A stretch of 64,000 nt of DNA, from the NCBI GenBank assembly GCA_036320915.1, contig JAXBDG010000016.1, positions 1,054,001-1,118,000 on the forward strand, in the 5' to 3' direction. Positions 9,422 through 55,700 of the stretch are shown one piece after another. Source of the DNA: Linnemannia elongata (lineage: Eukaryota; Mortierellomycota; Mortierellomycetes; Mortierellales; Mortierellaceae). The notes beneath the pieces are model-generated. The model was given only the letters and a program-made list of their open reading frames with translations. It did no database searches and was not told the origin of the DNA. Each line of letters begins with the position of its first letter. Within the stretch, counting starts at the first letter, position 1. A program made the position numbers and the translations under genes.

Positions 9422-9520
9422 GTGTACTCCTGATCTGTTATCTCTCTTCGCACCCCCAAATGACAATAACACGAGTCATCTCTTTTCTCTCACGACTCTC
9501 TTCGCCTATATAAAGAAGGG
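9422..9520 (+). promoter_or_regulatory. Secreted-gene promoter module (KP4-like copy 1)
   Basis: A block containing CTGATCTGTTATCTCTC, then AAATGACAATAACAC, then CTCACGACTCTCTTCG and a TATA box TATATAAAG at 9507-9515, followed by GAAG. It is about 105 nt upstream of the ATG, a plausible TATA-to-ATG distance. Homologous blocks precede the other KP4-like copies and unrelated secreted genes near 20.7, 37.7 and 55.6 kb. Confidence 0.7.
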
Positions 9521-9619
9521 GGTATTCCCAATCGCTCTTATCGGCAATATACTTCTCAAGTCTCAACAACTCTCAATAACACCACTAGCAACATCAATTG
9601 AAACTCCACCTTCAACAAA

Positions 9620-10000
9620 ATGGTCAAGTCAATCACCTTCTTCATGGTCGCCATCGCCACTGTCGCTGGATCTGTCTTCGGCTTCTTCGATACCTGCAAC
9701 GGCTCCTACCGCTGTAACAATGAGGGTATGAGTATCACTTGTAAGGAAGCCTTTAACCGATTCAATGACGACACCGTCTACAACAGCTTCACTTCACTCA
9801 CCAACCGTGACTGCGCCGCCATCTACCAATGCATCGGAGATTACCCCGCATTGACCGGTAGACAGATCAAGGATTTGTTCGCCCCCATCAACGCCGGCCA
9901 GGGATGCAAGGGCTGCGGAAGTCACGCTTTCAATGGTGGCAGTTGCAGGGTCACTCTGAACTACTGTTACAGCTGTCTTGATTCTGGCAACCCCAACTAG
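9620..10000 (+). CDS. KP4-like killer-toxin-family secreted protein, 126 aa
   Basis: Signal peptide at about residues 1-21 (hydrophobic core FFMVAIATVAGSVFG). The mature part is small with ten cysteines at 26, 32, 41, 65, 71, 96, 99, 109, 116 and 119. The spacing, with a GCKGCG element after an amphipathic segment (IKDLFAPI) and a C-terminal beta-strand block (VTLNYC), resembles the KP4/KP4-like killer-toxin family. Known KP4 is a secreted protein that inhibits competing fungi, reportedly by affecting calcium channels; fungal genomic homologues are thought to act in antagonism. Family assignment is by pattern only. This copy is roughly three-quarters identical to the two palindrome copies and keeps every cysteine. 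A conserved promoter precedes it; its 3' flank is also shared with the other copies. Confidence 0.6.
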   Translation: MVKSITFFMVAIATVAGSVFGFFDTCNGSYRCNNEGMSITCKEAFNRFNDDTVYNSFTSLTNRDCAAIYQCIGDYPALTGRQIKDLFAPINAGQGCKGCGSHAFNGGSCRVTLNYCYSCLDSGNPN

Positions 10001-10399
10001 GTGGCTGAATTTCTTGGACCCGTTTTTCCACAGCGGTCACAGGCTGTTCCTCTGCAAGCCATCACATATTATATCAAACGCGATTACGAGTTTTGTTTCC
10101 TTCCAGCAGTGTACTTTTTGAACACTTCACCTCCTCGCACTAAGAAATAAATAAATAAATAAACAGGGCGTGTTTAAAAAAAATTTCCATCGCTCATGAC
10201 ACTTGCAAAAAATACCTTTCCGTTTCCTGTGTGAAGTAGAAAAAGATGTGAAAGTGATAAGGTGAAAAAGAGATAGAAAATGTGTATGTGTGCGACTGTA
10301 ATAGGAAGTAGATGAGCTGGACAAGAACGTACCGTCTTTTATTTTCTAGCTGTCTTTGTTTGATTGTCTTCTCCTATCACGCGAGTAGATTCATCGCTC

Positions 10400-11930
10400 C
10401 TTTTCACCAATAGCTTGTTATAGCATTGCACCAATGCCCTGATTAGAAGCATCTGCAGCAATAAAGAAGGTTGCCTGAGATTTGGGAAAGAAATCACTAC
10501 AGAAGATGCCAACAGCAATTTCATTGTAAAAAAAGGCGTGCTGTTGTTCTGCTCTCCAGACTTTCAAAAGATTACTGGTATTCTTTGTCGGTTCGAAAGG
10601 AGCACTTACTTTTGAGTACATTGGGTAAATGGTCTCCAAAGTAGTTTAGCAATCCAAGATAATTTTGCAATTCTTAGGTATTCTTAGACTCTGGCCATGT
10701 AGTTGCATCATCCAACTTTACTGGATCAACTCTGATCCCTGTACTTGAAATGATGGAAGCAAGAAGCCTAAGTTTTGTGCGGAAGAAATTGCATTTATCT
10801 TTATTTATGATTAGCTTTGATTTATTGAGTCTGGTAAACACCTCCTCAGAATGATCAAAATGCTCCTCATAAGAATTGGAAGAGATAACTATATCATCTT
10901 GAAAAACTAGCACAAACAAAAGATCACCCAACAAGGACGACATAAAACTCTGGAAAATACTTGGCATGGTTTTCAAGCCAAAAGGTGCGCCTTGAAAGTC
11001 ATACTGCACATGTTTCCAAGTGAAAGCTATTTTGCGAATGTCTTTTTCTGCCATTCTAAATCGATGGTATGCCTTTTTGAGATCGATAGTACAAGATATC
11101 CTGTTACCAGCAACTGCTCTGAAGAGATCACGAACTAAGGCCAATTCGATATTTTTTCATCTTCAAGTAGTACGTTAAAATGACGGAAATCAAGGCACGG
11201 ATCAGTCCTCTTGCTATTAGCGTCATTTTTGGGTACTATAGTCAAAGGGGTATTAAGGACGAGCGTGATTAGAGTTTTGAAGCGAATAATGGTGCCACCT
11301 GCTAACTATTTCTTAATCGCTTTATCTACAAATCACTCATGATGAAATGGATATAGGGTGCTATTAATTTCCATGCTGTAACACCATCAAGTGTTTTCAG
11401 TCGCACTACAGCTTCATCCAGCGTACAAAAACTCTGCGGCGAAATAGCTGCATTCTCATCAATCAAAAACCACGAATGGGTTGAAGAAATCCATCCCTCA
11501 AAGCAATGAAGGCAGGAGCTTTCTCTGCTTCTCGGATCTGGGTTGGTACAAGAGCTTTAAACTCGTCTTCCAATGGATGCGGAGCAAAATGTTTTTGCAT
11601 CTTTACCAAGGCCGGGCAATCTAAAGATATCAGACCCAAAGACGAAAAATGTATCCAAACTAATCAGTAAGTCATAGCCATAAGGCATATCCAAGACTTC
11701 ACATGCATGAATTACTACTTTTTCTGTAGTGTCTAGAGCCACAGGTACAGTAGCACCAATACGAGGTACAGTAATGCTAGCATGTGCCAATTGAATGGGG
11801 TCATCATGTTGTCTGTATGAATGGCCATTACTTCTAATGTTTTGACTAGTCTAGTTGATACACACCTAACAGTGGTGTTGTATATGCGCACAACATGTGT
11901 GAAATATTTAGCCTGTGCTAGTCGTAGCAA
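10400..11930 (-). mobile_element. Ty3/Gypsy-like pol fragment (protease, RT, RNase H), decayed
   Basis: Reading on the minus strand from 11930 to 10400: a retropepsin-like stretch (VALDTT; later YDLLISLDTF), then reverse transcriptase with LKKAYHRFRMAEKD, QGAPFGLKTMPSIFQ and the catalytic FQDD box (about 10674-11144), then an RNase H start (FFIAADASNQGIGAML, 10418-10639). The frames are interrupted and no integrase or LTR pair is visible, so this is a dead fragment. It separates the 3' sides of two KP4-like genes. The part from about 10.68 kb onward is the outer left arm of the palindrome. Confidence 0.8.
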
Positions 11931-12324
11931 TTACAAGTTCACTCGCATGATATGAGGAGACAATAAAACAAAGACGGCTAGAAAATAAAGGGTACGTTTC
12001 TGTCCAACTCATCAACTTCCATGTGCAGTTGCACACATACACATTTTCTATCTGTTTGTCACCTTTATTACTCTCACATCTTTTTCTACTTCACAAAGCA
12101 AATGAAAAGGTATTTTTTGAAAGTGCCAAGAGCGATGAAGAATTTTTTTAAACATGATGTGGTTATTTATTTATTTATTTCTTAGTGCGAGGAGGTAAAG
12201 TGATCAAAAGGTACACTACTGGAAGGAAACAAAAATTCGTAATCGCGTTTGAAATAATATGGGATGGCTTGCAGAGGAACAGCCTGTGACCGACGTGGAA
12301 AAATGGGTCCCAGAACGCACTCAC

Positions 12325-12702
12325 TTAGTTGGGGTTGCCAGAATCAACACAGTTGGAACAGAAGTTCAGAGTGACCTCGCAACTGCCGCCATTGAAAGCG
12401 TGACTTCCGCAGCCCTTGCAGCCCTGGCCGCCGTAGATGGGGGCGAACAAATCCTTGATCTGTCTACCGGTCAGTGAGGGGAAGTCTCCGTCGCATCGGT
12501 AGATGGCGGTGCATTGGCCGTTGGTGCGTGAAGTGAAGCTGTTGTAGACCGTGTCGTCGGTGAAGCGGTTGAAGGCTCCAGTACAGTCGCCACTCATACC
12601 CTTGTTACAGCGGAAGGAGCCGTGGCAGTTGTCGGAGAAGCCGAAGACAGACACAGCGAGAGTGGCGATGGTGACCATGAAGAAGATGATTGACTTGAAC
12701 AT
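12325..12702 (-). CDS. KP4-like killer-toxin-family secreted protein, 125 aa (left palindrome arm)
   Basis: Mirror copy of the gene at 15515-15892; the proteins differ at one signal-peptide residue (Thr versus Ala at position 11). Signal peptide about 1-21. Ten cysteines at 26, 32, 40, 64, 70, 95, 98, 108, 115 and 118, matching copy 1 after a one-residue shift, including the GCKGCG element. Family assignment (KP4-like) is by cysteine pattern and moderate. It is transcribed away from the axis of the palindrome, divergently from its twin, with its own TATA box at 12808-12814. The frame is intact. Confidence 0.6.
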   Translation of the reverse strand: MFKSIIFFMVTIATLAVSVFGFSDNCHGSFRCNKGMSGDCTGAFNRFTDDTVYNSFTSRTNGQCTAIYRCDGDFPSLTGRQIKDLFAPIYGGQGCKGCGSHAFNGGSCEVTLNFCSNCVDSGNPN

Positions 12703-12801
12703 TTTGTTGAAGTTGGAGTTTTGCTTGATGTTGCTGGTGGTGTTATTGAGAGTTGTTGAGACTTGAGAAGTTTGTTGCCAATAAGAACGATGGGGATACC
12801 T

Positions 12802-12900
12802 CCTTCTTTATATAGGCGAAGAGAGTTGTGAGAGAAAAGAAATGACTCGTGTTATTGTCATTTGGGCAGCATGAAGAGAGATAACAGATCAGGAGTACAC
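12802..12900 (-). promoter_or_regulatory. Secreted-gene promoter module (left arm)
   Basis: Inverted copy of the module at 15319-15415. On the minus strand it reads CTGATCTGTTATCTCTC, AAATGACAATAACACG, then TCACAACTCTCTTCG and a TATATAAAG box at 12806-12814, about 105 nt before the KP4-like start. Confidence 0.7.
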
Positions 12901-12976
12901 CATTTCACATTGGACTAACAAACAATAACAAATCATCAAGGTCAAAGAGAAGATGAGGGATGCTAAGGGAACTTTG

Positions 12977-13560
12977 GCAAGTGGAAAGAAGCGGCATAGA
13001 AACATCAATGCAGAGAATAAAGGAACTTTTTAATAGAAGTAGGGGCAAGTCGAGAGATGAGGCACAGAAACTTCGATGCAGAAAAAAAGGGGTTTTTAAT
13101 ATAACTTAGGCAAGCGGAGAGATGAGGCACAGAAATATCTATGCAGAGAAAAAGGGACTTGTTAATATAACTAGGGCAAGCAGAAAGATGCGGCATAGAA
13201 ACATCGATGCAGAGAAAAAAGGGGTTTTTAATATAACTTGGGCAAGTGAAGAGACGAGGCATAGAAACATCGATGCAGAGAAAAAAGGGACTTGTTAATA
13301 GAACTAGAGGTAAGTGGAGAGATGAGGCACAGAAACATCGATGCAGAGAAAAATGGAACGTACTAATAGAACTAGGGTAAGTGGAGAGATGGGGAATAAA
13401 AAAATTAATGCAGAGAAAAAAGGACTTGAAAATAGAAGTAGGGCAAGTAAAAAAATGCGGCATAGAAACATCGATGCTAAGAAAAAAGGGACTTGTTACT
13501 AGAACTAGGGCAAGTGGAGAGATGAGGCATAGAAACATTAATGCAGAGAAAAGAGGGACT
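12977..13560. repeat. 67-bp minisatellite, about 8.7 units (left arm)
   Basis: Mirror of 14657-15240. Recurring GATGAGGCATAGAAACATCG and GCAGAGAAAAAAGG blocks with a 66-67 bp period. It lies between the promoter module and the 25-bp minisatellite. Confidence 0.85.
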
Positions 13561-13661
13561 TGCTAAAAGAAGAGGCATCATATGGTGTGCCCTAGTGTTA
13601 CAAACGCCTTTCGAATTATTAAAACTGCCAACTATGCGATTAAGAATTCTGCGGCCAATTA

Positions 13662-13786
13662 CTAATTGCACCGCCTTAACATAGGAATACCTGCACTGCC
13701 TTGACACAGGGGTAATTGCACTGCCTTGACACAGGAACATTTCTACCGCCTTGACACCTGAACATTTGCACCGCCTTGACACAGGA
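13662..13786. repeat. 25-bp minisatellite, 5 units (left arm)
   Basis: Mirror image of 14431-14555: five 25-bp units of the type GCCTTGACACAGGAA read on the plus strand. Confidence 0.85.
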
Positions 13787-13802
13787 ATATTCTCACTATC
13801 GT

Positions 13803-14030
13803 AACAAAATGTTTTGTTGCAATAGTAATTGAACGTAGTACAAGAGGAACAGTTCTTTCGGATAATTGGTATTTGCGCCTGCTTGAGCAGGCAATGGCCC
13901 TAAGCTATCATCCGCTGGGCTATGGCTAAAACGCCTCCAAATCAGAACCCGTGCTAAAACCTGACGATTATCGCCGTATGCCATTTTTAGATGGATACGA
14001 AAAGATCTGCGGTCCTGAATCTTACGAACA
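13803..14030 (+). pseudogene. 28S rRNA 3'-end relic (left arm)
   Basis: Inverted copy of the relic at 14188-14415, here in 28S sense on the plus strand (CGCCTCCAAATCAGAACCCG, GTGCTAAAACCTGACG, GATGGATACGAAAAG). Compared with canonical 28S ends it is substituted and truncated. It is antisense to the KP4-like gene of its arm. Confidence 0.72.
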
Positions 14031-14060
14031 CGGTGTTATCTTGCAGAGCGGAAAGGTGTA

Positions 14061-14158
14061 ATAACTTACCTTGATCCACAGCTCTGACCTCTGACCTCCG
14101 ACCTCTGACCTTCTTCCTCTTCGCCCATCATCCGATAAACTTATACCTCAAGTTTATA
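14061..14158. other. Palindrome spacer
   Basis: About 98 bp not inverted-repeated, containing short CTGACCT/CCGACCT tandem units. A homologous, non-palindromic stretch lies at about 8782-8868 in copy 1, which shows the pre-inversion order of this sequence. Confidence 0.75.
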
Positions 14159-14187
14159 ACACCTTTCCGCTCTGCAAGATAACACCG

Positions 14188-14415
14188 TGTTCGTAAGATT
14201 CAGGACCGCAGATCTTTTCGTATCCATCTAAAAATGGCATACGGCGATAATCGTCAGGTTTTAGCACGGGTTCTGATTTGGAGGCGTTTTAGCCATAGCC
14301 CAGCGGATGATAGCTTAGGGCCATTGCCTGCTCAAGCAGGCGCAAATACCAATTATCCGAAAGAACTGTTCCTCTTGTACTACGTTCAATTACTATTGCA
14401 ACAAAACATTTTGTT
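14188..14415 (-). pseudogene. 28S rRNA 3'-end relic (right arm)
   Basis: On the minus strand it resembles the 28S 3' terminus. Plus-strand landmarks are TTCGTATCCATC, GGTTTTAGCACGGGTTCTGA, GGAGGCGTTTTAG and TTACTATTGCAACAA. Antisense to the downstream KP4-like gene, as in copy 1. Confidence 0.72.
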
Positions 14416-14430
14416 ACGATAGTGAGAATA

Positions 14431-14555
14431 TTCCTGTGTCAAGGCGGTGCAAATGTTCAGGTGTCAAGGCGGTAGAAATGTTCCTGTGTCAAGGCAGTGC
14501 AATTACCCCTGTGTCAAGGCAGTGCAGGTATTCCTATGTTAAGGCGGTGCAATTA
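14431..14555 (+). repeat. 25-bp minisatellite, 5 units (right arm)
   Basis: Five units beginning at 14431, 14456, 14481, 14506 and 14531, each like TTCCTGTGTCAAGGCGGTGC. Copy 1 at 9144 has only two. Confidence 0.88.
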
Positions 14556-14656
14556 GTAATTGGCCGCAGAATTCTTAATCGCATAGTTGGCAGTTTTAAT
14601 AATTCGAAAGGCGTTTGTAACACTAGGGCACACCATATGATGCCTCTTCTTTTAGC

Positions 14657-15240
14657 AAGTCCCTCTTTTCTCTGCATTAATGTTTCTATGCCTCATCTCT
14701 CCACTTGCCCTAGTTCTAGTAACAAGTCCCTTTTTTCTTAGCATCGATGTTTCTATGCCGCATTTTTTTACTTGCCCTACTTCTATTTTCAAGTCCTTTT
14801 TTCTCTGCATTAATTTTTTTATTCCCCATCTCTCCACTTACCCTAGTTCTATTAGTACGTTCCATTTTTCTCTGCATCGATGTTTCTGTGCCTCATCTCT
14901 CCACTTACCTCTAGTTCTATTAACAAGTCCCTTTTTTCTCTGCATCGATGTTTCTATGCCTCGTCTCTTCACTTGCCCAAGTTATATTAAAAACCCCTTT
15001 TTTCTCTGCATCGATGTTTCTATGCCGCATCTTTCTGCTTGCCCTAGTTATATTAACAAGTCCCTTTTTCTCTGCATAGATATTTCTGTGCCTCATCTCT
15101 CCGCTTGCCTAAGTTATATTAAAAACCCCTTTTTTTCTGCATCGAAGTTTCTGTGCCTCATCTCTCGACTTGCCCCTACTTCTATTAAAAAGTTCCTTTA
15201 TTCTCTGCATTGATGTTTCTATGCCGCTTCTTTCCACTTG
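14657..15240 (+). repeat. 67-bp minisatellite, about 8.7 units (right arm)
   Basis: Units start with AAGTCCC or a variant at 14657, 14724, 14791, 14857 and so on. Shared blocks are TTTTTTCTCTGCATCGATG, TTTCTATGCCTCATCTCTCC and ACTTGCCCTAGTT. The non-palindromic copy 1 (about 9293-9360) has a single unit. Strongly pyrimidine-biased on the strand coding for the KP4-like gene. Confidence 0.88.
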
Positions 15241-15318
15241 CCAAAGTTCCCTTAGCATCCCTCATCTTCTCTTTGACCTTGATGATTTGTTATTGTTTGT
15301 TAGTCCAATGTGAAATGG

Positions 15319-15415
15319 TGTACTCCTGATCTGTTATCTCTCTTCATGCTGCCCAAATGACAACAACACCAGTCATTTCTTTTCTCTCGCGACTCTCTTC
15401 GCCTATATAAAGAAG
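15319..15415 (+). promoter_or_regulatory. Secreted-gene promoter module (right arm)
   Basis: Same order of blocks as copy 1: CTGATCTGTTATCTCTC, AAATGACAACAACAC, CTCTCGCGACTCTCTTCG and a TATATAAAG box at 15404-15412. The KP4-like ATG is about 105 nt downstream. Confidence 0.7.
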
Positions 15416-15514
15416 GGGTATCCCCGTCGCTCTTCTCGACAACAAACTTCTCAAGTCTCAACAACTCTCAATAACACCACCAGCAACATCAAGCAAAACT
15501 CCAACTGCAACAAA

Positions 15515-15892
15515 ATGTTCAAGTCAATCATCTTCTTCATGGTCGCCATCGCCACTCTCGCTGTATCTGTCTTCGGCTTCTCCGACAACTGCCACGGCTC
15601 CTTCCGCTGTAACAAGGGTATGAGTGGCGACTGTACTGGAGCCTTCAACCGATTCACCGACGACACGGTCTACAACAGCTTCACTTCACGCACCAACGGC
15701 CAATGCACCGCCATCTACCGATGCGACGGAGACTTCCCCTCACTGACTGGTAGACAGATCAAGGATTTGTTCGCCCCCATCTACGGCGGCCAGGGCTGCA
15801 AGGGTTGCGGAAGTCACGCTTTCAATGGCGGCAGTTGCGAGGTCACTCTGAACTTCTGTTCCAACTGTGTTGATTCTGGCAACCCCAACTAA
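15515..15892 (+). CDS. KP4-like killer-toxin-family secreted protein, 125 aa (right palindrome arm)
   Basis: Twin of 12325-12702. Signal peptide about 1-21, then a compact mature domain with ten cysteines and the GCKGCG element. The start is the first ATG after the TATA box and the AACAACTCTCAATAACACC leader shared by all three copies. The 3' flank (15893-16260) is also conserved among the three copies and runs into the Gypsy fragment. Predicted secreted antagonist by family analogy; function not shown by sequence alone. Confidence 0.6.
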   Translation: MFKSIIFFMVAIATLAVSVFGFSDNCHGSFRCNKGMSGDCTGAFNRFTDDTVYNSFTSRTNGQCTAIYRCDGDFPSLTGRQIKDLFAPIYGGQGCKGCGSHAFNGGSCEVTLNFCSNCVDSGNPN

Positions 15893-16289
15893 GTGGCTGC
15901 GTTTCTGGGACCCATTTTTCCACGGCGGTCACAGGTTGTTCTTCTGCAAGCCATCGCATATTATTTCAAACGCGATTACGAATTTTGTTTCCTTCCAGCA
16001 GTGTACCTTTTGAACACTTTACCTCCTCGCACTAAGAAATAAATAAGTAAATAAATAAACACATTGTGTTTGAAAAAATTCTTCATAGCTCTTGACACTT
16101 GCAAAAAATACCTTTCCATTTTCTGTGTGAAGTAGAAAATATGTGAGAGTGATAAAGGTGACCGTCAGATATAAAATATGGATGTGTGCAACTGTGCATG
16201 GAAGTAGGTGAGCTGGACAGAAACGTACCCACTTTATTTTCTAGCTGTCTTTGTTTCATTTTCTCCTCTTATCACGCGAGTAAGCATGC

Positions 16290-17570
16290 AATTGCTACGA
16301 CTAGCACAGACCAAATGCTTCACACATGTTGTGCGCATATACAATACTACTATTAGGTGTGTATCAACCAGACTAGTCAAAACATTAAAAATAATGGCCA
16401 TTTATGCAGACAAAATGATGACCCCATTCAGTTGGCACGTGCTAGCATTACTGTACCTCGTATTGGTGCTACTGTACCTGTGGCTCTAGACACTACAGAA
16501 AAGGTAGTAATTCATGCATGCATGTGAAGTCTTGGATATGCCATATGGCTATGACTTACTGATTAGTTTGGATACATTTTTCGTCTTTGGGTCTGATATC
16601 TTTAGATTGCCCGGACTTGGTAAAGATGCAAAAATATTTTGCTCCGCATCCATTGGAAGACGAGTTTGAAGCTCTTGTACCAACCTAGATCCCAGACGCA
16701 GAGAAAGCTCCAGCCTTCATTGCTTTGAGTGATGGATTTCTTCAACCCATTAGTGGTTTTTGATTGATGAGAATGCAGCTATTTCGCCGCAGAGTTTTTG
16801 TACTCTGGATGAAGCTGTAGTGCGAATGAAAACACCTGATGGTGTTACAGCATGGAAAAAACACAGTACCCTATACCCATTTCATCATGAGCGATTTGTA
16901 GATAAAGCGATTAAGAAATAGTTAGCAGGTGGCACTATTATTCGCCTCAAAACTCTAAACACGCCTGTCCTTAATACCCCTTTGATTTTGGTACCCAACA
17001 AGGCGCTAATGGCAAGAGGACTGATCCATGCCTTGAGTTCCGTCATTTTAACGTATTACTTGAAGATGAAAATATCGAGTTGCCCTTAGTTCGTGATCTC
17101 TTCAGAGCAGTTGCTGGTAACAGGATATCTTCTACTATCGTTCTCAAAAAGGCATACCATCGATTTAGAATGGCAGAAAAAGACATTCACAAAACAGATT
17201 TCACTTGGAGACATGAGCAGTATGACTTTCAAGGCGCGCCTTTTGGCTTGAAAACTATGCCAAGTATTTTCCAGAGTGTTATGTCTTCCTTGTTGGGTGA
17301 TCTTTTGTTTGTGCTAGTTTTTTTCAAGATGATATAGTTATCTCGTCCAATTCTTATGACAAGCATTTTGATCATTCTGAGGAGGTGCTTACCAAACACA
17401 ATAAATCAAAGCTAATCATAAATAAAGATAAATGGAATTTCTTCCGAATGAAACTTAGGCTTCTGCTTTCATCATTTCAGGTACAGGGATCAGAGTTGAT
17501 CAAGTATAGTTGGATGATGCATCTACATGGCCAGAGCCTATTGGGCATTTCACATAAAATATTTTATTTT
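16290..17570 (+). mobile_element. Ty3/Gypsy-like pol fragment, right arm, decayed
   Basis: Inverted counterpart of 10680-11930. A protease-like part lies near 16400-16640 and reverse transcriptase blocks at 17080-17337 (LKKAYHRFRMAEKD, QGAPFGLKTMPSIFQ). A frameshift just before the catalytic FQDD destroys the active site (the frame reads LVFFKMI and stops at 17337). It ends within RT near 17545, where the palindrome ends, and lacks the RNase H present on the left. Confidence 0.8.
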
Positions 17571-17617
17571 GGCGACTAAACCCCGATTAGCCAGCTATTC
17601 AGGGCAACATTTTTGTT

Positions 17618-17692
17618 CCACACCCATGCAAACCTCGCTCACAGCTGGATTGGTGGTTAATTTTTTATTCATTTTGGTTGAAAGGCACAATA
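17618..17692 (+). repeat. Dispersed 75-bp repeat, copy A
   Basis: Matches 44378-44452 with a few substitutions (shared strings CCATGCAAACC, CTCATTTTGGTTG or variant, GAAAGGCACAATAT). Flanks differ. It sits just outside the palindrome. Identity unknown; it may be an end of an unrecognised element. Confidence 0.6.
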
Positions 17693-17782
17693 TGACAAGG
17701 TTTGATGTAGAGTCCCAATTTATGGGATATGCGTTTATAGCGTGTGTATAGGAGGCACATCTGCGAGAATATTAGGCATTCA

Positions 17783-19185: not shown

Positions 19186-19194
19186 CAAAGAGGA

Positions 19195-19383: not shown

Positions 19384-19399
19384 TTTTACCGGATGGGTT

Positions 19400-20039: not shown

Positions 20040-20282
20040 CTAGTTGGGACAGGTCGGGGGACAGCTACGACCTTCCGATCTGCAAATCCTGTCGCACTCG
20101 GCCTTTGCGACGCGGCAGTTGTTCTTGAAAACACTGCACATATTCGAGTTGGAGTCCAGGTACCATCTCTTGCTCTCGCCAACCCGTTCATAGAGGTGAT
20201 CCATGGCACCAGCGCAGCTCAAGGCAGCAACCATCTGCAAGCAGACGGCAAAAAGAAAGAGGGCAGCGGCGAAGAACTTCAT
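20040..20282 (-). CDS. Small secreted cysteine-rich protein, 80 aa (weakly Kazal-like)
   Basis: Clear signal peptide (about residues 1-20, FFAAALFLFAVCLQMVAA). The mature part has seven cysteines at 23, 49, 56, 63, 67, 74 and 78. The central stretch MCSVFKNNCRVAKAEC recalls the C-x-x-F-x-N-x-C core of Kazal-type protease inhibitors, but the typical N-terminal cysteine pair is not obvious, so this is only a hint. A TATA box lies at 20394-20401 on the minus strand. Further upstream (20600-20795) is the shared secreted-gene promoter, which suggests either two start sites or a cassette inserted upstream. Confidence 0.6.
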   Translation of the reverse strand: MKFFAAALFLFAVCLQMVAALSCAGAMDHLYERVGESKRWYLDSNSNMCSVFKNNCRVAKAECDRICRSEGRSCPPTCPN

Positions 20283-20599
20283 GATTTCTCGGTTAGGAAA
20301 TGAAATCAGTTGGTTTGAAAGGCAGTTGAAACTATGGTTCGAGACAGACGCATTGGAAGAATTAGATCAATCATGAATAAGTACTGTCACCCGTTATATA
20401 GTCGCGAAAGTCCTGTAAACTGTGACTTGAAAGTGATAAAGTTGTGCAGGTGTGTACTTGGGCTGTGTGGGTCTTTTTGTGAGCGTTCCCGTGAGTGTTC
20501 TTGATAGGGTTCTGTGGTGTTCTTGTAAGGATTTTGTGAAGGAGGTTGTTTATGTGGCAACTCTTGTGATCGGTGATGTGATGGTTCTTGCAGTAGTTG

Positions 20600-20795
20600 T
20601 TATGTGCGCCGTTGGGAGTATAGACTTTTGAGGTAGGATAAGATGTCTATTGATACAAGACGCTGAGCGGGTGCGACTTCTTTATATGTGTGTAGAGGGT
20701 CGTGAAAGTAAGAAACGAGTCGAGGTGTTGTCATTTAGGCAAGGGGAGAGAAAACAAATCAGGGGATGCACCATTTCCATTTTGGTCACGAATGA
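20600..20795 (-). promoter_or_regulatory. Secreted-gene promoter and 5' leader module
   Basis: On the minus strand: GGTGCATCCCCTGATTTGTT, CTAAATGACAACACC, ACTTTCACGACCC, a CATATAAAGAAG TATA-type box at about 20677-20688, then the leader CAGCGTCTTGTATC and CATCTTATCCTACCTCAA. The first half matches the KP4-like promoters; the leader matches those at 37.6-37.7 and 55.6-55.7 kb. Confidence 0.65.
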
Positions 20796-21190: not shown

Positions 21191-21461
21191 ATGAAATGGT
21201 AGAGTGGCAACAACGAAACGCGAACTCAAAAATGATTTTCCAATCATGGGCAAATCTTCACTACCCTGTCTAAGGAGAAAAAATGTAACTTCACAAACAT
21301 CAATGGCACTCTCTCTACCATGACAAAAAGGAAGGCTTTACGAATGTATGCCTTTTACGTCAAACTGTGAGCAAAGCATATTATACCACCATATGTCCTT
21401 TAACGTTCCTACTGTTTCTTTTTGCTTTTTCTGTTTTTTTTTTTGGCGAGCAACTTATATA

Positions 21462-23775
21462 CAGTCAAACCTCTCCTATAGCATACGCTTTTGCCGCAAG
21501 GGTTGATATGCTATAGGAGAGGATATGCTACAGGGCTAAGCCGCAGTCACATAGCCCTTAATAAATTTGAATACGCCCCTTAACAACTTTGCAAATGAGG
21601 TACGCTCGCACCACCTGTACGGAGATGACATCGCCTCATTCTACCATGGAGTCGCCTGATGAGTTGTTTTCGAGGAGCATCGCTTCCTCTCCCATTTCTG
21701 CTGCTTCGTCGTCAGAGTCCTCATCTGATGCAGAAGAGTCTACGCCTACGCAAGGGATAACAGCTGCAAAACAAACTTCCGCAAAAAGGGTAAGCGATGC
21801 CAGATATTTCTCAAACGTTGCTTGATGAATCACAAGCAAATTCTAATATGTCTGTAACATAACTTTTTGTGTAGTGTGCGAAAAGTTCTCTTACCAACGA
21901 GCAGAGAAAACGACTTTGTGAGAGGTTTGAAGGGGGAGGAATATCACAGAAGGCTTTAGGTGTATGGGGTATGCAAGAATTCAAATTATCAAGACCCATC
22001 CAGCAACCGGCACTTAGTCGTATTCTCCAAAAAAAAAAAAACGCTCAACAACTTGACCCCATCCCAATTGGATTCAAAGCGAGTAAACGAGGTCACCAAC
22101 AAGCAACTGGACGATGAGCTTGCCGCCTGGGTTTTGAATTGTCAGAGGATAGGGGTGGCTGTCACCGGCAATATTATCATTGAAAAGGGCAAGCAACTCA
22201 GTGAGACTAGGACACCCTGCCCGACCTTTTCTACAGGATGGCTTCAAAAGTTCATCAAGCGACACAACCTCCAGTCTATCAAGTTGCATGGAGAGTCAGG
22301 ATCTGTGGACCAAGCAGCCTTACAAGCAGCCTTACCGATGCTACAACAAACGATCGCTCAGTTCGCCCCCGTAGATGTTTACAACATGGACGAGACTGGA
22401 CACTACTATTGTCTTGCACCCACTCGCACGATTGCATCCGGCAAAGTCGCCGGGTTCAAAAAGTCCAAGTCAAGAATCTCTATTGCATTGACGTCGAACG
22501 CGACTGGAACAGACAAGAGACCGCTACTTTTTATCGGAACCGCAGTAAACCCCAAGTGCTTTGGCCGCAAGACTGCCAGTCAGCTTGGGCTTCAATACTA
22601 CCACAACAGCAAGGCTTAGATGACAGGTAATACAGATATTATAGACAAGGACGGAGCAATCATTCATTATTATGTTCTAGATTGATTTATTGATATATGA
22701 TAAAGGTGTCATTTTTCGGTCCTGGTTGAAGAAGTTTGATAGGGCAATGCAGGTCGAGAACCAAAATATCCTTTTGATTCTTGACAATGCTTCTTCCCAC
22801 AACTACACAGGATTGACCCTCAACAATATCACCATATTGATGCTTCCGCCAAATATGACGTCGGAAATTCAACCCATGGATGCAGGGATTATTGCTGCTT
22901 TTAAATGTCATTATCGTCGTCGCCACTCCCAGGCCGCTGTCAACAAAGCAGATCGAGGTGAACGCAACATCTACAAGGTCCATGTTTTGCAAGCGATGGC
23001 TTGGAGCAGACGAGCATGGGCTTCTATTGAGTCGGCCAAGATCAGGAACTGCTTCAACCACACCAATTTGATGGGTCCCAGCAACGAGATCCCTTCAATC
23101 GACCAACATTTGCAGGAGGCCCTTGATGATATCGATCATAACCTAAGCCTACTTCCAAAGGACCTGCGGATTCCTCGAGAGGCGTTCATTGATCCAGTGG
23201 GCGAGAACGGGAGCATACATATCCAACTGAGTGACACTGAGTTGTTGGCCTTGCCTGTTGACGGAACTGACAGGATGGATAAGGACAACGGAGAGGACAA
23301 GGGGCAAGAGGAGGAAGAGGAGGACGAGGAGCAAGATGATGAACCCCCATTGCCAAGCAGGGCAGAGATTCTTGCTGCCATCGATCTCACTATGCAGTAC
23401 ATCGATGGAGATCTTGGCCCGATTGAATACCCTGAAGAAGGAGACACCTTTGCAGTTACACTCAAGAAATTGAAGGGTTGGCGTGAAGCCCTGCACAAGA
23501 GCATCCTTTCGAGCATGACTCAACCCACCCTCCATTCGTTCTTTCGGCCCCAGTAGGATATAGGTCAACAGAGCTGGAATAAATATGTGAATACTCAGTA
23601 CCCTACTCTATTGCTTATAGCATATTGCAACAAGGTCGACATGCTATAGGAGAGGTCGATAGCATACCCACATGGTATGCTATAAGCCCAGTCTAAATTT
23701 CATTTTTCAACAAAAAAATATGCTATAGGGGAGGTTTATGCTATATGAGAGTATGCTATAGGGGAGGTTTGACTG
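21462..23775 (+). mobile_element. Pogo-type (Tc1/mariner superfamily) DNA transposon, copy 1
   Basis: 2314 bp bounded by terminal inverted repeats starting CAGTCAAACCTCTCC and ending GGGGAGGTTTGACTG, flanked by TA target-site duplications (21460-21461 and 23776-23777). Subterminal ATGCTATAGGAGAGG-type motifs recur in direct and inverted orientation at both ends, as expected for transposase-binding sites. It is nearly identical to the element at 56617-58928, so both moved recently. Confidence 0.93.
21595..23556 (+). pseudogene. Pogo transposase, inactivated (copy 1)
   Basis: Inferred exons 21595-21789, 21875-22626 and 22706-23556, with GT-AG introns of 85 and 79 nt. A psq/CENP-B-type HTH segment starts at exon 2 (LTNEQRKRLCERFEGG, GISQKALGVW), followed by a second DNA-binding segment (FSTGWLQKFIKRHN) and a DDE-type catalytic domain (YNMDETG, ILDNASSH, IQPMDAG). 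Two lesions are seen. An A13 tract at about 22029-22041 puts the frame one base over, and a TAG at 22617-22619 replaces the Trp codon found in copy 2. Exons sum to 1798 nt, one more than a multiple of three. Confidence 0.85.
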
Positions 23776-23913
23776 TACAAAAGTGACCGAGAAAAAAAAC
23801 CTCCAGAGAATGGGGATAGAGGCCCAAAAATAAAAAAGGATGTAATTGAAAATGAAAACCAAGATGCCATTGTCAGCAAGGCAAACATGATCGTAGTGAG
23901 GGTAGGAAGATAA

Positions 23914-27389: not shown

Positions 27390-27423
<34 letters not shown>

Positions 27424-35072: not shown

Positions 35073-35901
35073 GGTCTTATGCGAAGGTGGAGAGTGAAAA
35101 GTAGAATTGGTCAATGGATGTTTAGAATGTACGTATGATGTGCAAAGGGAACACGGGAAGAGAAAATGTGTCAGGAACGGGGCATGAGGGGATAAGGAGC
35201 GAAAGGAGGATAAGGATGAGAAAGAAAGGTAAAAGTGGGCAAACAAGGGAGGAAGAAGAGGGAAACGTTAAAAGAAACGACAAGAGCTGAAAGCGACGGG
35301 CGAGGTCGACTCAGCACCTTTTTGCATCCATGATCGAAAGACAAAAAAAAAGAGATAGCATGACCAACTGTTAGTTCACATATGCATCATGCAATAGACC
35401 ATGGACCACCTTCCATCTTTCCCTCCCTGTTCAATCCTAACAAGGCGCTCACAAAACCATAAATAGCCTTCCTACAGTGGAGAAAAATCTTTCCGTTAAT
35501 CTACTGTTTTCCTTTGTTCGTCAAAGCGATCGAAAATCCAACGAGCGCCAAGGAAGACTTGTGAATAAAAGGGGCAGAAAAGCAAAGTGGCAATTTGACA
35601 TGCTGTGCATGCAATTTACGGACAATCGATGTTTGTGAGTTCCGAGGAGGACTCTTGTAGTGGATGGGTGAATTCCACGTGAGGGAAACCAACAAGTGTA
35701 CCCGTCTTGCTGAATGGTGTCTTTTTTTCTCTCTCCCTTTCCTTTTGCGCTCTGGTGCACTGGCCGACTTTCTTCCTGATGAAGGACTGTGCGTGGGTGT
35801 CTGAGTGCAGACAAAAGAAGAAAATATGCAACGACAGCATTAGCCATTTAAAAGTTGCGCACCTTTGGGTGAAAACAAAACGAGGGTGAGGGGATGTAGA
35901 A
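35073..35901. other. Intergenic
   Basis: The left part is the pyrimidine-rich (minus-strand) leader of the kelch gene. The rest shows no coding or RNA features until the 18S-like sequence starts. Confidence 0.55.
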
Positions 35902-36775
35902 GTCTACTTGGATAACCATGGTAATTCTAGAGGTAATGCTATATTCAGACTGCTAGAAGGGATATATTTATTAGGTAAAATACCAATGCGGGCAACCAGT
36001 TCTCAGGTGATTCATAATAACTTTTCGAATCGCATAGCCTTGTGCTAGCGATGTTTCGTTCAAATTTCTGCATTATCAACTTTCGATGCTAGGATAGAGG
36101 ACTACCATGGTTTTAACGGGTAACGGGGAATGAGGGTTCGATTCTGGAGAGGGAGCCTGAGAAACGGCTACCACATCAAAGGAATCCAGCAGGCGCGCAA
36201 ATTAGCCAATCCCGATACGGGGAGGTAGTGACAATAAATAACAATACAGGGCTTTATTAGTCTTGTAATTGGAATGAGTACAATTTAAATCTCTTAACGA
36301 GGGGCAATTGGTAGGCAAGTCTGGTGCCAGCAGCCGCGGTAATTCCAGCTCCAATAGAGTATTGTTGCAGTTAAAAAGCTCGCAGTTGCATTTTCGGCCT
36401 GGTTAGACGGTCTGCTCTAGGGTTTGTACTGTCCTAACTGCGTCTTACCTTCTGGTGAGCTGTCGTATTGTTTACTCAGTGCGGCAGGGAACCAGGACTT
36501 TATATTGAAAAAATTAGTGTTTAAAGCAGGCATTCGCTTGAATAGGTTAGCATGGAAGAATAGAAGAAGAATTTGGTTCTATTTTGTTGGTTTTTGGGAC
36601 CGAAATAATGATCAATAGGGATAGCTGGGGGCATTGGTATCTAATTATCAAAGGTGAAATACTTGGATTTATTAAAGAGTAATTTCTGCGAAAGCATTTG
36701 CCAAGGATGATTCCATTAATCAAGAACGAAAGTTAGGGGATCGAAGACGATCAGATGCCATCGTAGTCCTGTGAG
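35902..36775 (+). pseudogene. 18S rRNA relic (partial, degenerate)
   Basis: Plus-strand match to the 5' and central domains of nuclear 18S rRNA. Landmarks are TACTTGGATAACC, CCCGATACGGGGAGGTAGTG, TAATTGGAATGAGTACAATT, GGTGCCAGCAGCCGCGGTAA, TTAAAAAGCTCGCAGTTG and GGTGAAATACTTGGATTTAT. It starts about 140 nt into a normal 18S, has substitutions and small deletions (for example just after CTCCAATAG), and loses similarity after GATGCCATCGTAGTC. The 3' half is missing. A dispersed pseudogene, not part of an rDNA unit; no 5.8S or ITS follows. Confidence 0.88.
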
Positions 36776-37097
36776 GCCCTCTAGATATAAGATGTAGAGA
36801 GAAAAAAGAAGGGCTAGATAGGCGAATATCCAGCGGATGATGAACATCAAGAACAAGGAGAGAAATTATATGGGAAAATGATATATATTTATGCGTAAGA
36901 ACGAAAAAGAGCTAAAGGGGATTCTAAGGTAATGCTTGCTATTTATGTGGAGGTGAGGTTTGGCTCAAGTCCGGGAGGGTTGAAGTCACGGGATCGGCAG
37001 AGCATCAGAGTCCTCGGGAGAACTTCCTGGATCGGAGTTGTCAGGGCCTAGGGGAGAGTAGGGACGTGGCGACCAGATAGACTACAGGAGGACATGC
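36776..37097. other. Intergenic
   Basis: No longer rRNA-like; no coding evidence. Forms the 3' flank of the minus-strand secreted gene. Confidence 0.5.
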
Positions 37098-37429
37098 TTA
37101 GGGGGAAGCAGGGACTCCTGACTTAAGACCGTAGTAGAGAGCTCGGATACAATCTAACTGACAAGCTACATACCTCTCGGTATGATCTTTGGAACCATCG
37201 CCCTGGGGGCAGGAGGCAACACAGTTATTGGTTGCGTTCACTTGGCTATTATCGGTGGCAGGGACGTGAATGCAGCCTGATCTACACGCAATGTCATCTT
37301 CATAGCACGCTTGAAGGCATTTGCCAGCAGAAGATTCTGGGGGGGGGGGGCCGAGGTAACGTCAGTCGTGGATGTGGCGTCGTTGGTCGTGGATGCGGCT
37401 ATGACAACCATTATCCACAGGATGGACAT
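37098..37429 (-). pseudogene. Secreted cysteine-rich protein gene, frame broken in a 12-C tract
   Basis: The ATG at 37429 starts a signal-like leader (MSILWIMVVIAAS) and a Thr-rich stretch. Within a run of 12 C (minus strand, 37339-37350) the frame must change for the downstream part to make sense. In the other frame it encodes eight evenly placed cysteines in four C-x3-C pairs (CLQAC, CRSGC, CVASC, CQLDC) with QVNATNNC, PQGDGSKDHTE and CIRALYY, ending at a TAA (37098-37100). This layout resembles a family of fungal secreted or cell-surface proteins with four CxxxC pairs. Either the tract length is misread, or the gene is really shifted by one base. A shared promoter lies upstream. Confidence 0.6.
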
Positions 37430-37599
37430 AGCATAGCGGGTACATGCCAACATAATAGGTTAGGTTTGGTATCCTGGGCAGGCTTCAAGTGAAAGTAAAT
37501 GCTGGTTAATTTAGTAAAAGGACCTGTTGCGAGAGTCAATTCTTATTGATCGCAATCATACAATAGCAAGGTGCTTACTTTTCTGGTTTTAGACGAGTT

Positions 37600-37815
37600 C
37601 TTACGTGTGTTTTTTGCGGGATTTGTGCAAGTGTCCTTGTAGTGGTATTGCCAGCTTGGAGTCTTGAGGTAGGATCAGATGTGTGTCGGTGCAGGACGCT
37701 GGGTAGGTTCTACCTATTTATATAAAAGAGATGAAATAAATGGAGTTATTTTCATTTGGGCATAGAATAAGGAAGTCAATCAGAACTGCATCTTTTGCTT
37801 TGGACAAAGAACGAG
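37600..37815 (-). promoter_or_regulatory. Secreted-gene promoter and 5' leader module
   Basis: On the minus strand: AGATGCAGTTCTGATTGAC, CCCAAATGAAAATAACTCC, CATCTCTTTTATATAAATAG (TATA at 37719-37727), then the leader ACCCAGCGTCCTGCACC, GACACACATCTGATCC and TACCTCAAGACTC. The leader closely matches 55630-55690 (plus) and 20600-20670 (minus), although the downstream proteins are unrelated. Confidence 0.68.
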
Positions 37816-37929: not shown

Positions 37930-38660
37930 AACGGCGAGCTGGGATGACAGGGGCATGCTGAAGGAGAGTCCGATCAAAAATTTGAAGGCATACAAATGAA
38001 CCAACCTGAGAGAAAGAGAAACTAGTGAAACCAAACGTCCAAAAGGTGAACGAAGTGCAAATATAAAAGAAGATACGGTCGTCGAGAAGATCAAGAGATG
38101 GCTGCCAAAAGGGAGGGATGCAGATAAGATTAACGGCAAGAAGATACTGGAAAAAATATGATAAGAGGACAAATGAAAATGGAAGTATGATAACAAAAAT
38201 CAAGGGCGAGAACCAAGGGACAGAGTGACAATATCAAGGGAAACATCAAGGGACAAAATCAAGGGACAAGACCTAGGAACAATATCAAGGGACAATATTT
38301 AGGTAAAATATCAAGGGCCAGCATCAAGGGACCCGGAGTGAAACACAGAGAGGGACACAGAGAAGGACAAGGACAACATCGAGGGGCACAGGCACATCAA
38401 GGGACAGAGAGAGGGACAACACCAATGGACAATGCCAAGGCACACAGAAAGGGAAAACATCAAGGGATAGCACCGAAGGCCAACACCTAAGGTTAACATC
38501 AAATTCATAGGATGTTGAAAAAAGACCTAGCGAAGCTGGCATGAATAGCTGGAGATGCTGAAAAAGGGTCAAAGATCAATGGAGGCCATTTAGAGAAGGG
38601 AAACCTAGGAAAGATCAAAGGACAACACTATTGGACAACACTAATAGACAACACTAATCT
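37930..38660. repeat. Degenerate minisatellite, ATCAAGGGACA type
   Basis: Many short tandem units such as ATCAAGGGACAAAATCAAGG and, at 38620-38660, three GACAACACTA units. It lies on the upstream side of the minus-strand secreted gene and reads TCCCTTGAT on its coding strand. The same unit, in the matching orientation, occurs upstream of the plus-strand gene at 55862. Confidence 0.65.
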
Positions 38661-49499: not shown

Positions 49500-49725
49500 G
49501 AAGCCATTTCTTGATCTTGGTCATCTTTTATCTCATCTGACAGCCTTCCTTCTCACCCAAGCCCAGTCTTCGAGCACCTTTTTCATCTCTACCCTTGCTT
49601 CTTCCGTATCATTCCCCAGGGGAGCCACCATACTCTACGTCGTCGGAGGTGTGAAGTCTGCCGAACCAAGCTATATTACTAAACCCTTGTCATCCCTTCC
49701 TTTGTCCAATATAGAAAAACAATAG
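49500..49725 (+). pseudogene. Kelch-TM gene N-terminal relic
   Basis: The frame reads LSHLTAFLLTQAQSSSTFF, then SVSFPRGATILYVVGGV. This matches the signal-peptide end and first kelch strand of the family (for example SAQANYTPITT and FARTQTKLYVLGG in the gene at 51878). Everything after the first blade is missing and the frame soon ends. Truncated pseudogene about 2.2 kb upstream of an intact member on the same strand. Confidence 0.5.
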
Positions 49726-54302: not shown

Positions 54303-54419
54303 GCGAGCGGGGATGTATATAATAAAACCCTGTAGAAGTTTTCTCAGGATCCTGGATTTTTTTATCACCGCATTTTCCCAATCCATATGCAGTTTCCTCC
54401 TTAATCCTTTCCTTGACAT

Positions 54420-54940
54420 ACCCTTCATCTTTCTAAGGTTCCTCCTTTTTTTTGCTTCTGCTTGATCCCATTAGCATCTGCCCTCTTTGTTATTCTCTCT
54501 GAGGCCTTTAATTACTGATTCGTTTGGCGTCCCCTTTTCCGTTCTCTCTCCACTCCCTTGGTCATTTTGGAGCCCCTCTTCTTTTGTCTTTTTTCTTTCT
54601 GTCTCCCCTTGATCCTTTTGGCACTCCTCTTCCCCCTCTTTTTTTGGCTTTTTTTCTTTCCGCATTCCCTTGAATTTTTTTTTTTTTTTTTTTTTGGCAC
54701 TTTCCAGATCCCCTTGTTAATCCTTTTCTGCATTCATCCTCCATTGGTGTTTTGCCTTGATTCATCCCTTGTTTTTTTCCTGTCCCTCCCCTACCCTAAA
54801 TGCCCTTGATCTTTTCCAGCATCCCTTGATCTTTTTTTTAGTGCTGTCCCTTGATGTTGTCTCTTGGCGTTCTCTATGGTGTTGTCCTATGGTATTGTCC
54901 CTTGATGTCGTTCAATAGTGTTGTCCATTGGTGTTTGTCT
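54420..54940 (+). repeat. Degenerate pyrimidine-rich minisatellite (CCCTTGAT type)
   Basis: Loose repeats such as CCCCTTGATCCTTTTGGCAC, CCCTTGATCTTTT and, at the right end, GTGTTGTCC.ATTGGTG units. It contains an 18-22 nt T tract (about 54672-54694). Same family as 37930-38660, oriented pyrimidine-rich toward the downstream plus-strand secreted gene. Confidence 0.65.
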
Positions 54941-54942
54941 TT

Positions 54943-55050
54943 TGGTGAACAATCCAACGCTTACTGATTTCTGCTTCAGTATGATAGGAAGAGCCAACAT
55001 CGAAGGATCCAAAAGCAATATGGCTATGAAACGCGTGGGTGTGACACGTA
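54943..55050 (-). pseudogene. 28S rRNA relic
   Basis: Plus landmarks (reverse complement of 28S) are GGTGAACAATCCAACGCTTA, GCTTCAGTATGATAGGAAGA, GCCAACATCGAAGGATC and AGCAATATGGCTATGAA. About 100 nt, embedded in the minisatellite region upstream of the secreted gene. Confidence 0.82.
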
Positions 55051-55237
55051 GCATAATTCTAAGAGAGCAACGACCATAACTGGATCAAATGCATTTTTGA
55101 TTCCCCTTTGCTTATGACAACCCTTTCTTCATAACGGACATACCCCTGAATTCCTAGCAACCCTCCCTTCGCAGCTTCCTTTGATCTTTTCTGTTTGTCC
55201 ATTTCACGGCTTACCATTGTTCTTTTTGGCATCCCCT

Positions 55238-55512
55238 TGTCATAACAGCAAAGCGAGGGGGTACTGACAAGGGGTGACGGGCAGGAGGATGGGCAAGACA
55301 AGGACAAGAGATGACTAAGGACACGAAGGGAAAGGCTAGAAACGGATGTGGTTTATTGTACAGAAGGGGCAAGGTATTTATACTAGATTAGAAGGAATGA
55401 GGGCGAACTAGTAACAAGCAGGGGAGGTGTAAGCGTCTAAGATCGAGGGGGTTGTCAAGGCAACCAAGGCAATAGAAAGCAGGGGTTACGTTAATCTACA
55501 ATCCTGTTACAT
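55238..55512 (-). mobile_element. Solo LTR (about 275 bp)
   Basis: Bounded by TGTCATAACAG on the left and CTGTTACA on the right, which together give TG...CA ends with short inverted termini. Read on the minus strand, it has a TATAAATA box at about 55376-55383 and AATAAACC downstream, the usual LTR order. No internal retroelement sequence is present. The 5-bp flanks (CCCCT and TCCCT) are an imperfect target-site match. It sits between the minisatellite and the promoter of the gene at 55862. Confidence 0.6.
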
Positions 55513-55589
55513 CCCTCCTCTTCTCAGTGTGCCCTTGACCTTTTTGGCATCTCTTCTGTTCTCAATACGCCCTTGATCATCCTCATCCC

Positions 55590-55700
55590 TGTTTCTTTCA
55601 CGACTTTCTTCAGGTATATAAAGAAGACGCACTTACCCAGCATCCTGTATCGACACACATCAGATCCTACCTCAATACTCTAGACGCACACCAGCACTCA
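55590..55700 (+). promoter_or_regulatory. Secreted-gene promoter and 5' leader module
   Basis: TTTCTTTCACGACTTTCTTC, then TATATAAAGAAG (TATA 55615-55622), then CCCAGCATCCTGTATCG, ACACACATCAGATCC and TACCTCAATACTC. The core resembles the KP4-like promoters; the leader matches 37.6 kb and 20.6 kb. Confidence 0.7.

Follow-up and report, generated by a model that had tools for sequence, protein, structure and literature searches.

A predicted promoter–leader cassette, probably copied from gene to gene, upstream of predicted secreted-protein genes of different families in Linnemannia elongata

In spliced-leader trans-splicing, unrelated mRNAs carry one 5′ leader. Terminal reassortment, a bacterial process reportedly described by Stavrinides in 2006, is said to join an end module to unrelated sequences and thereby to yield new secreted products. 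With regard to type III effectors, the term is explained in a passage of PMC5675462. In Schistosoma japonicum, a dispersed family on 34 contigs and 18 scaffolds has core promoter and signal sequence in common; recombination between repeats has been proposed for it, and other organisms yielded no homologue (PMC3434034). The mimp of Fusarium oxysporum—a 200–220 bp MITE with inverted repeats—lies in the promoters of SIX effector genes, and its deletion left the expression of SIX1, SIX3, and SIX5 unchanged (PMC3599309). In plant-parasitic nematodes, the DOG box (ATGCCA, 6 nt) is not strand-specific and belongs to genes that include sequence-unrelated families (PMC4901422), and STATAWAARS is a cis element common to secreted effectors that has been used to predict them (PMC6062891).

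The window considered here is the whole 64,000-nt stretch of Linnemannia elongata DNA that was analyzed (GCA_036320915.1, contig JAXBDG010000016.1, 1,054,001–1,118,000, forward strand). This species is a common soil and root associate. A first-pass annotation had claimed homologous blocks at six sites—A (9.4 kb), B (12.8 kb), C (15.3 kb), D (20.7 kb), E (37.7 kb), and F (55.6 kb)—and had read them as reuse or capture of a promoter by secreted-protein genes not related to one another, which would give a set of effectors or inhibitors a common control (Table 1); no such system in fungi was found in the literature searched. Single-word tests of these blocks are weak, and homology tests were used instead. 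CTGATCTGTTATCTC is present at A, B, and C; D carries it with 2 mismatches. As a lone word it is near chance (5 observed versus 1.9 expected). AAATGACAATAACAC occurs at A–E with 0–3 mismatches, the TTTCACGACT block at A–D and F, and TATATAAAGAAG at six of six sites with 0–2 mismatches. The blocks therefore exist, but not each block at each site. That they are homologous is proven not by single words but by alignments (D–F, 230 bp, 70% identity, E=9e-19; E–F, 66 bp, 83%, E=2e-14; A–D, 90 bp, 74%, E=5e-10) and by a leader profile trained on 17 loci, all outside the window, which matches F (E=2e-31), D (E=2e-24), and E (E=1e-21) and gives weak matches at C, A, and B (between 3e-5 and 1e-4; A, E=4e-5). 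Nothing in the window besides A–F is matched by this profile at E<0.01, the next match having E=0.29.

Sites D, E, and F represent a homologous 5′ cassette, in which a promoter and TATATAAAGAAG are followed by an A/C-rich, ATG-depleted leader. Of the leader words that had been ascribed to all three, GATCCTACCTCAA is indeed found in each, but CCAGC.TCCTG.ATCGACAC is confined to E and F, with a diverged copy at D. At A–C, upstream of the KP4-like/MU117 genes, homology to the cassette ends at the TATA box and the leader is absent. B and C lie within an inverted duplication (95% identity), and A, B, and C count once because they are copies of one gene. Genes A–C match PF15474 at 64.6–71.4 bits (curated cut-off 30.4), the genome has three PF15474 matches, and one database relative of gene C (P0004) is named Killer toxin Kp4. 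A paralogue of gene D at C8:1241447 carries the same leader. At site E, the TATA box and the last leader match lie ~85 nt apart, and the ORF of gene E spans a run of 12 C (37339–37350). Gene F has 5 database matches, of which the 3 named ones are in Linnemannia. Copies of one transposon adjoin D and F.

Table 1. Cassette sites, downstream genes, and distal repeats in the window
Feature	Position	Strand	Remarks
Site A, promoter part to TATA box	9422..9518	+	upstream of MU117 gene 1; word, alignment, profile matches
Gene A, MU117 (PF15474) predicted secreted protein, 126 aa	9620..10000	+	
Site B, shared promoter part	12803..12900	-	precedes MU117 gene 2; duplicated in inverted form at C
Gene B, MU117 predicted secreted protein, 125 aa	12325..12702	-	
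Site C, shared promoter part	15318..15415	+	precedes MU117 gene 3
Gene C, MU117 predicted secreted protein, 125 aa	15515..15892	+	
Site D, promoter, TATA (20677-20688), full-length 5′ leader	20283..20781	-	alignment, profile
Gene D, 80-aa cysteine-rich predicted secreted protein	20040..20282	-	without Pfam match
Site E, promoter remnant (AAATGAAAATAACTC), TATA, leader's first part	37638..37760	-	words, alignment, profile
Gene E, signal-peptide-like ORF, 71 aa as read	37238..37453	-	
Distal CCCTTGA repeat cluster, upstream of E	38206..38466	-	
Site F, promoter, TATA (55615-55626), 5′ leader	55590..55861	+	words, alignment, profile
Gene F, 139-aa predicted secreted protein	55862..56281	+	without Pfam match
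Distal CCCTTGA repeat cluster, upstream of F	54606..54905	+	

Genome-wide, 51 leader loci were located on 15 contigs of the 51-Mb genome, all of them reaching E≤2e-7 in one search or more; this number is a lower bound because 40 of 53 candidates were scored in one search. Least supported are L095 (E=4e-8 over 45 nt) and L096 (E=1e-7); the reversed consensus gave no match as a genome query. By an automatic rule, a secreted ORF lies 100–520 nt downstream at 35/50 loci (31/46 once 4 recent duplicates are removed), compared with 2/40 in antisense (Fisher p=7e-11), 2/40 at positions shifted by 1.3 kb, and 9.2% of random window positions (n=2790); loci without 1400 nt of upstream sequence were left out of the antisense, shifted, and distal-repeat counts. 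Cassette matches thus precede secreted ORFs above chance, and the condition under which the first-pass annotation would have been refuted, random placement relative to genes, fails on these counts. The rule for signal peptides is a home-made hydropathy rule rather than SignalP and skips several ORFs that look secreted by eye. When picked by hand, a predicted secreted ORF is found at 44/50 loci and, with the 51st locus, at 45/51, three of the picked ORFs being shorter than 60 aa; at 6/51 loci no secreted ORF was called. The cassette has a single orientation relative to the ORF. The 45 proteins fall into 38 families without detectable kinship (defined by BLASTP E≤0.01), some of which could be remote relatives below BLASTP detection. 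The proteins of L037 and L040 look alike by eye. Most products are short and cysteine-rich, with at least 4 Cys in 33/40, and 33 of the 36 cassette proteins scanned—L054, L055, L057, and family duplicates left out—are Pfam-negative at E≤0.01. Among the cassette products are an aspartic protease of 341 aa (match to PF00026, 9e-73) and a defensin-like peptide, and similarity or naming links products to KP4, defensins, ShKT, and aspartic proteases. Promoter reuse before unrelated secreted genes is thereby supported across the genome, and more strongly than the window alone showed.

The shared DNA stops before the start codon. Upstream of the ATG, 278 locus pairs align at E≤1e-6, pairs within one protein family and the recent duplicates L078, L083, L084, and L085 (also left out of k-mer counts) being omitted, whereas each of 10 dinucleotide-shuffled sets gave 0 pairs. 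Alignments upstream of the ATG join 39/40 loci into one connected set, L093 aligning with no other locus at E≤1e-6, and the longest extend over 236–334 nt at 65–78% identity between different families. None of 273 HSPs reaches more than 15 nt past the ATG, and coding DNA, its signal-peptide part included, gave no between-family pair at E≤1e-4 (40 loci); the signal-peptide DNA is hence not part of the cassette. The 3′ flanks gave 5 pairs (38 loci). The upstream blocks were located in 17–22 of 41 loci, and the cassette ends are not sharply defined. Three loci have 518–811 bp of upstream DNA in common, 97–98% identical. The three paralogues retrieved lack the cassette: one is the closest aspartic protease, at 65% identity, and the other two are defensin-like genes; a search for a further captured family through paralogues of L047 returned L047 itself only.

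Besides a predicted promoter, the shared unit comprises a 5′UTR-like leader and, at nine loci, a predicted 5′UTR intron. The leader sits right upstream of the CDS, is encoded next to each gene, follows its own TATA box at most loci, and carries marks of a 5′UTR: A/C make up 66% of its bases, and 36 leaders contain 21 ATGs versus 56 ± 5.5 expected. A conserved RNA structure was rejected, with no conserved pairs in the leader 3′ half (11 sequences) and the region upstream of F matching nothing in Rfam. Viral and prokaryotic contigs, in collections not aimed at fungi, held 0 exact matches to the leader. A crude splice rule yielded unspecific intron candidates and was superseded by a second analysis. 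The intron start has an intact GT at 9/46 loci (8 from that analysis plus L030), with anchors picked by eye; any role of the intron in spread therefore rests on a minority. The first 20 nt of the intron are 69% identical, the branch region 54%, and the middle 29%, near chance. In the 20 nt past its 3′ end, identity is 27.6% versus a null of 27%; sequence past this end is at chance identity in 7/9 intron loci. Over the opening 30 nt of the CDS, identity is 37.5% versus a null of 26%, which the shared ATG and signal-peptide codons may explain. Distal CCCTTGAT repeats often accompany the cassette: upstream CCTTGA occurs 159 times in sense versus 3 in antisense over 36 loci, with fewer than two copies at 13/36, and 11/17 places have the distal repeat without the leader.

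The reading that we favor, with a probability of roughly 0.7, is that a homologous 5′ cassette stands before ~45 predicted secreted genes of 38 families, was likely copied from gene to gene, and would place them under one transcription programme. It is unlikely that the cassette instead derives from a transposable element (solo LTR, MITE, or similar), a part of which inserted before genes and was kept where useful, as with the mimps of Fusarium. Transposon copies near loci, those of one element beside D and F among them, and the nearly identical upstream DNA of three loci would suit such an origin, but few copies lack a secreted ORF (6/51), the orientation relative to the ORF is single, inverted repeats of at least 14 nt are absent from 5/5 loci tested (of 51), the order of TATA box, leader, and intron is gene-like, and ATGs are depleted.

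Descent from one old gene family, in which promoter and leader were conserved while coding sequence became unrecognizably different—the pattern of toxin families whose mature parts are hypervariable—is improbable. It would account for the uniform orientation and architecture at all loci, for the preponderance of short cysteine-rich products, and for L037 and L040, which may encode distant relatives. Against it speak the named domains of the aspartic protease and the defensin-like peptide, the leaderless paralogues of both, and the failure of coding DNA to align between families whose upstream DNA is, in the longest alignments, 65–78% identical over 236–334 nt. Convergence, through selection of strong TATA promoters and A/C-rich unstructured leaders for high expression, would be in keeping with the base content and with the absence of a predicted consensus structure in the leader 3′ half; it is nevertheless highly improbable, as the empty shuffled sets speak strongly against it, positional blocks and intron sequence are held in common, and the leader profile finds no further site in the window at E<0.01.

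In the favored gene-to-gene copying, the cassette would consist of a predicted TATA-box promoter, a predicted untranslated A/C-rich leader, and at some loci a predicted 5′UTR intron; transcription would start ~25–30 nt after the TATA box, and the intron would be spliced. Promoter and noncoding first exon would have spread together, probably via ectopic recombination or segmental duplication whose breakpoints fell in the intron or the second exon. The moving part may be either the cassette or the coding exon. Recombination upstream of the start codon would thus bring mixed small secreted proteins under one control, the downstream genes would be co-regulated, and their products could act as an antimicrobial or effector-like arsenal. 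More tentatively, at somewhat less than even odds, Mortierellaceae may possess a genomic socket made up of a mobile promoter, a noncoding first exon, and an intron, into which unrelated secreted exons, old or newly born, plug by intron recombination, so that the arsenal keeps being rebuilt and co-expressed under a constant regulatory head. If the genes are co-expressed, the cassette could serve as bait predicting an arsenal of small secreted proteins in 38 families, and a transcription factor bound at it would be the master switch of that arsenal. The system would then offer a clear-cut example of how shuffling of noncoding first exons lets genes gain expression.

Compared with known systems, the cassette resembles trans-splicing in that mRNAs unrelated to one another would begin with one kind of 5′ leader, but the Linnemannia leader is encoded beside each gene, mostly behind its own TATA box. 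The module in terminal reassortment includes the secretion signal, whereas each Linnemannia family has its own signal peptide. As with mimp, various secreted genes are marked by a single repeated sequence upstream, and mimp has been used to predict new ones; unlike mimp, the cassette has a TATA box, leader, and intron and lacks inverted repeats in the 5 loci tested (PMC3599309). Nor does it occur in many copies outside gene promoters, 6/51 loci being without a called secreted ORF. The DOG box and STATAWAARS are likewise cis elements common to different secreted genes and predictive there, but they are short elements, while the cassette comprises hundreds of homologous bases plus a leader, with alignments of up to 304–334 nt between loci of different families (PMC4901422, PMC6062891). 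The S. japonicum family is similar in that a promoter-proximal 5′ piece is dispersed before different secreted products. Its unit includes signal-peptide coding DNA, however, whereas sharing in Linnemannia ends before the ATG, at the end of a predicted 5′UTR intron, and the genes downstream, unlike the S. japonicum products, include old families (PMC3434034).

A set of predicted secreted-protein genes of Linnemannia elongata carries a homologous 5′ unit, the cassette, which consists of a TATA-box predicted promoter, an A/C-rich predicted untranslated leader and, at some loci, a predicted 5′UTR intron. The first-pass annotation had described it as a promoter and leader shared by unrelated secreted-protein genes, with sequence blocks at six sites of the window (A–F). 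Word searches recover the blocks in the window, but unevenly spread over the sites; the homology itself is borne out by local alignments of 230 bp between D and F, 66 bp between E and F, and 90 bp between A and D. A profile trained on 17 loci outside the window, to avoid circularity, reached E<0.01 in the window only at F, D and E and, weakly, at C, A and B. For the last three, the proposed homology stands up to the TATA box, but nothing is shared beyond it, and local alignment identifies A, B and C as copies of a single MU117 gene (KP4-like, PF15474), two of them within a 95% inverted duplication. Of the four LSU rRNA pieces, three match one range of the model and precede the three MU117 genes, with which they were probably duplicated. 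The C run in gene E is possibly a hypermutable tract or an assembly error; beyond it, another frame appears cysteine-rich by eye. The DDE transposon beside D and F is one we take to be pogo/Tigger-like.

Coordinates of features in the window and of one cluster elsewhere in the genome
Feature	Position	Remarks
MU117 gene sites A, B, C	window, 9.4, 12.8, 15.3 kb	promoter part only
Leader gene sites D, E, F	window, 20.7, 37.7, 55.6 kb	promoter and leader
Partial rRNA matches	window 35752-36783; 8965-9118; 13814-13967; 14251-14404; 62774-63334	one SSU, four LSU pieces
Inverted duplication	window 10685-14067 and 14150-17540	3.4 kb, 95.4% identical; holds MU117 genes B and C
DDE transposon, two copies	window 21460-23778 and 56615-58931	98.4% identical; ~30-bp inverted ends; one adjoins gene D, the other F
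Run of 12 C	window 37339-37350	within gene E
Gene lacking the leader	window 59405-60660	signal-peptide-like start; CCCTTGAT repeats upstream
Leader genes L082-L085	contig C23:2400775-2409964	four genes of one family, two divergent pairs within ~9 kb; proteins 88-100% identical

When the genome (51.1 Mb, 32 contigs) was searched with the upstream region of F as sole query, 24 matches at E≤10 were obtained on ten contigs. The leader consensus and parts of the leader added further matches and, after merging by place, at least 51 leader loci were counted on 15 contigs (50 tabulated plus C1:4647001; A–C not included), a lower bound since one consensus search scored 40 of 53 candidates. The upstream region of A–C matched only itself and its two copies in the genome, and the reversed consensus, made of the same 333 letters, matched nothing there. 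The expected placement before secreted-looking ORFs is supported by an automatic rule (length ≥60 aa, a start that is hydrophobic, small cleavage-site residues, ATG 100–520 nt from the match start), which called such an ORF at 35 of 50 leader loci versus 2/40 on the antisense side, 2/40 with the anchor moved 1.3 kb upstream and 9.2% of random window positions (n=2790). With a cysteine requirement added, the corresponding values are 29/50, 0/40, 1/40 and 1.7%; removal of four recent duplicates leaves 31 of 46 under the original rule. By eye, a secreted-looking ORF was picked at 44 of the 50 loci (three of these ORFs <60 aa), and one also lies downstream of the 51st; neither approach called one at L034, L042, L045, L049, L053 or L095. 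By BLASTP the downstream proteins look largely unrelated: 45 proteins fall into 38 families (E≤0.01, the weak pair L043/L089 taken as one family). A Pfam scan (E≤0.01) of 35 of these 45 and one MU117 protein identified L031 as an aspartic protease and L041 as a defensin-like protein (22.9 bits, cut-off 20.4); L088 weakly matches a family, and L100 has no Pfam match.

Across 40 loci, 254 of 777 different-family pairs align at E≤1e-6 (three same-family pairs excluded), and one connected set joins 39 of the 40. None of 273 aligned pieces extends >15 nt beyond an ATG. Regions trimmed at the ATG yield 278 different-family pairs at this threshold versus none in each of ten dinucleotide-shuffled sets, and the coding DNA of 40 loci yields none at E≤1e-4. 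The 3′ flanks give 5 aligned pairs (38 loci) and the region farther upstream (-1450 to -100) 205 (36 loci), part of which are due to 97–98% identical transposon-like stretches. The leader (A 31%, C 34%, G 14%, T 20%) is depleted in ATG, with 21 seen versus 56 ± 5.5 expected in 36 leaders, as would be the case for the 5′UTR of a translated mRNA whose transcription start we infer to lie in the unit. Its 3′ half revealed no conserved fold; a weak 12-nt periodicity is found between TATA+110 and +300 (mean self-match 0.33 at lag 12 versus ~0.27 at most other lags).

At the leader end, a GTAAGGCTATATGACAGGA-like sequence with intact GT is kept in 8 of 46 loci and also in L030. For eight of these nine a CTAAC-like branch site could be placed, and in seven a predicted 3′ splice site lies 4–39 nt upstream of the ATG. 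Compared ungapped from anchors picked by eye, intron starts are 69% and branch regions 54% identical, and the first 20 nt past the predicted 3′ splice site 27.6% versus 27% by chance, with the ATG already inside in 5/7. Over its first 30 nt, the CDS reaches 37.5% identity versus 26% expected, an excess that may be due to the common ATG and signal-peptide codons. The top different-family alignment by identity times length, L037/L040, stops short of the ATG by 39 and 34 nt, exactly at the predicted intron ends. The homologous unit thus looks like a promoter, a noncoding exon 1 and an intron that would be spliced out, with each gene having an exon 2 of its own.

Farther upstream, beyond the promoter (-900 to -50, 36 loci), CCTTGA occurs 159 times in sense versus 3 in antisense, at least twice in 23 of the 36 loci; downstream, the counts are 7 and 9. 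Of 17 exact GCATCCCTTGATNTTTT matches in the genome (control, 0), six fall in the 0.8 kb before leader loci and the other 11 elsewhere. This distal repeat could form an array for a regulator or assist recombination. The leaderless gene near the window's end has a borderline Inhibitor_I66 match (27.2 bits, cut-off 27).

The spread of the cassette may be approached through paralogues. Among 28 aspartic-protease matches in the genome, some of them fragments of one gene, L031 alone sits at a leader locus by coordinates; the leader was not found at its closest paralogue (65% identical over residues 215–341), nor at two defensin-like paralogues of L041 (38–40% identical). These leaderless paralogues, which could possibly have lost a cassette once present, suggest that the cassette moved from gene to gene, as against whole genes having descended from one ancestor. 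Like this mode of spread, co-expression of the cassette genes and their biological role are inferred rather than shown. No comparable system in Mortierellaceae or other fungi was found in the open-licence literature, among the matches listed. All named relatives of gene F (3 of 5 matches) are from Linnemannia and MU117 is present across Mortierellaceae; thus, the cassette or its promoter part is carried by young as well as old genes.
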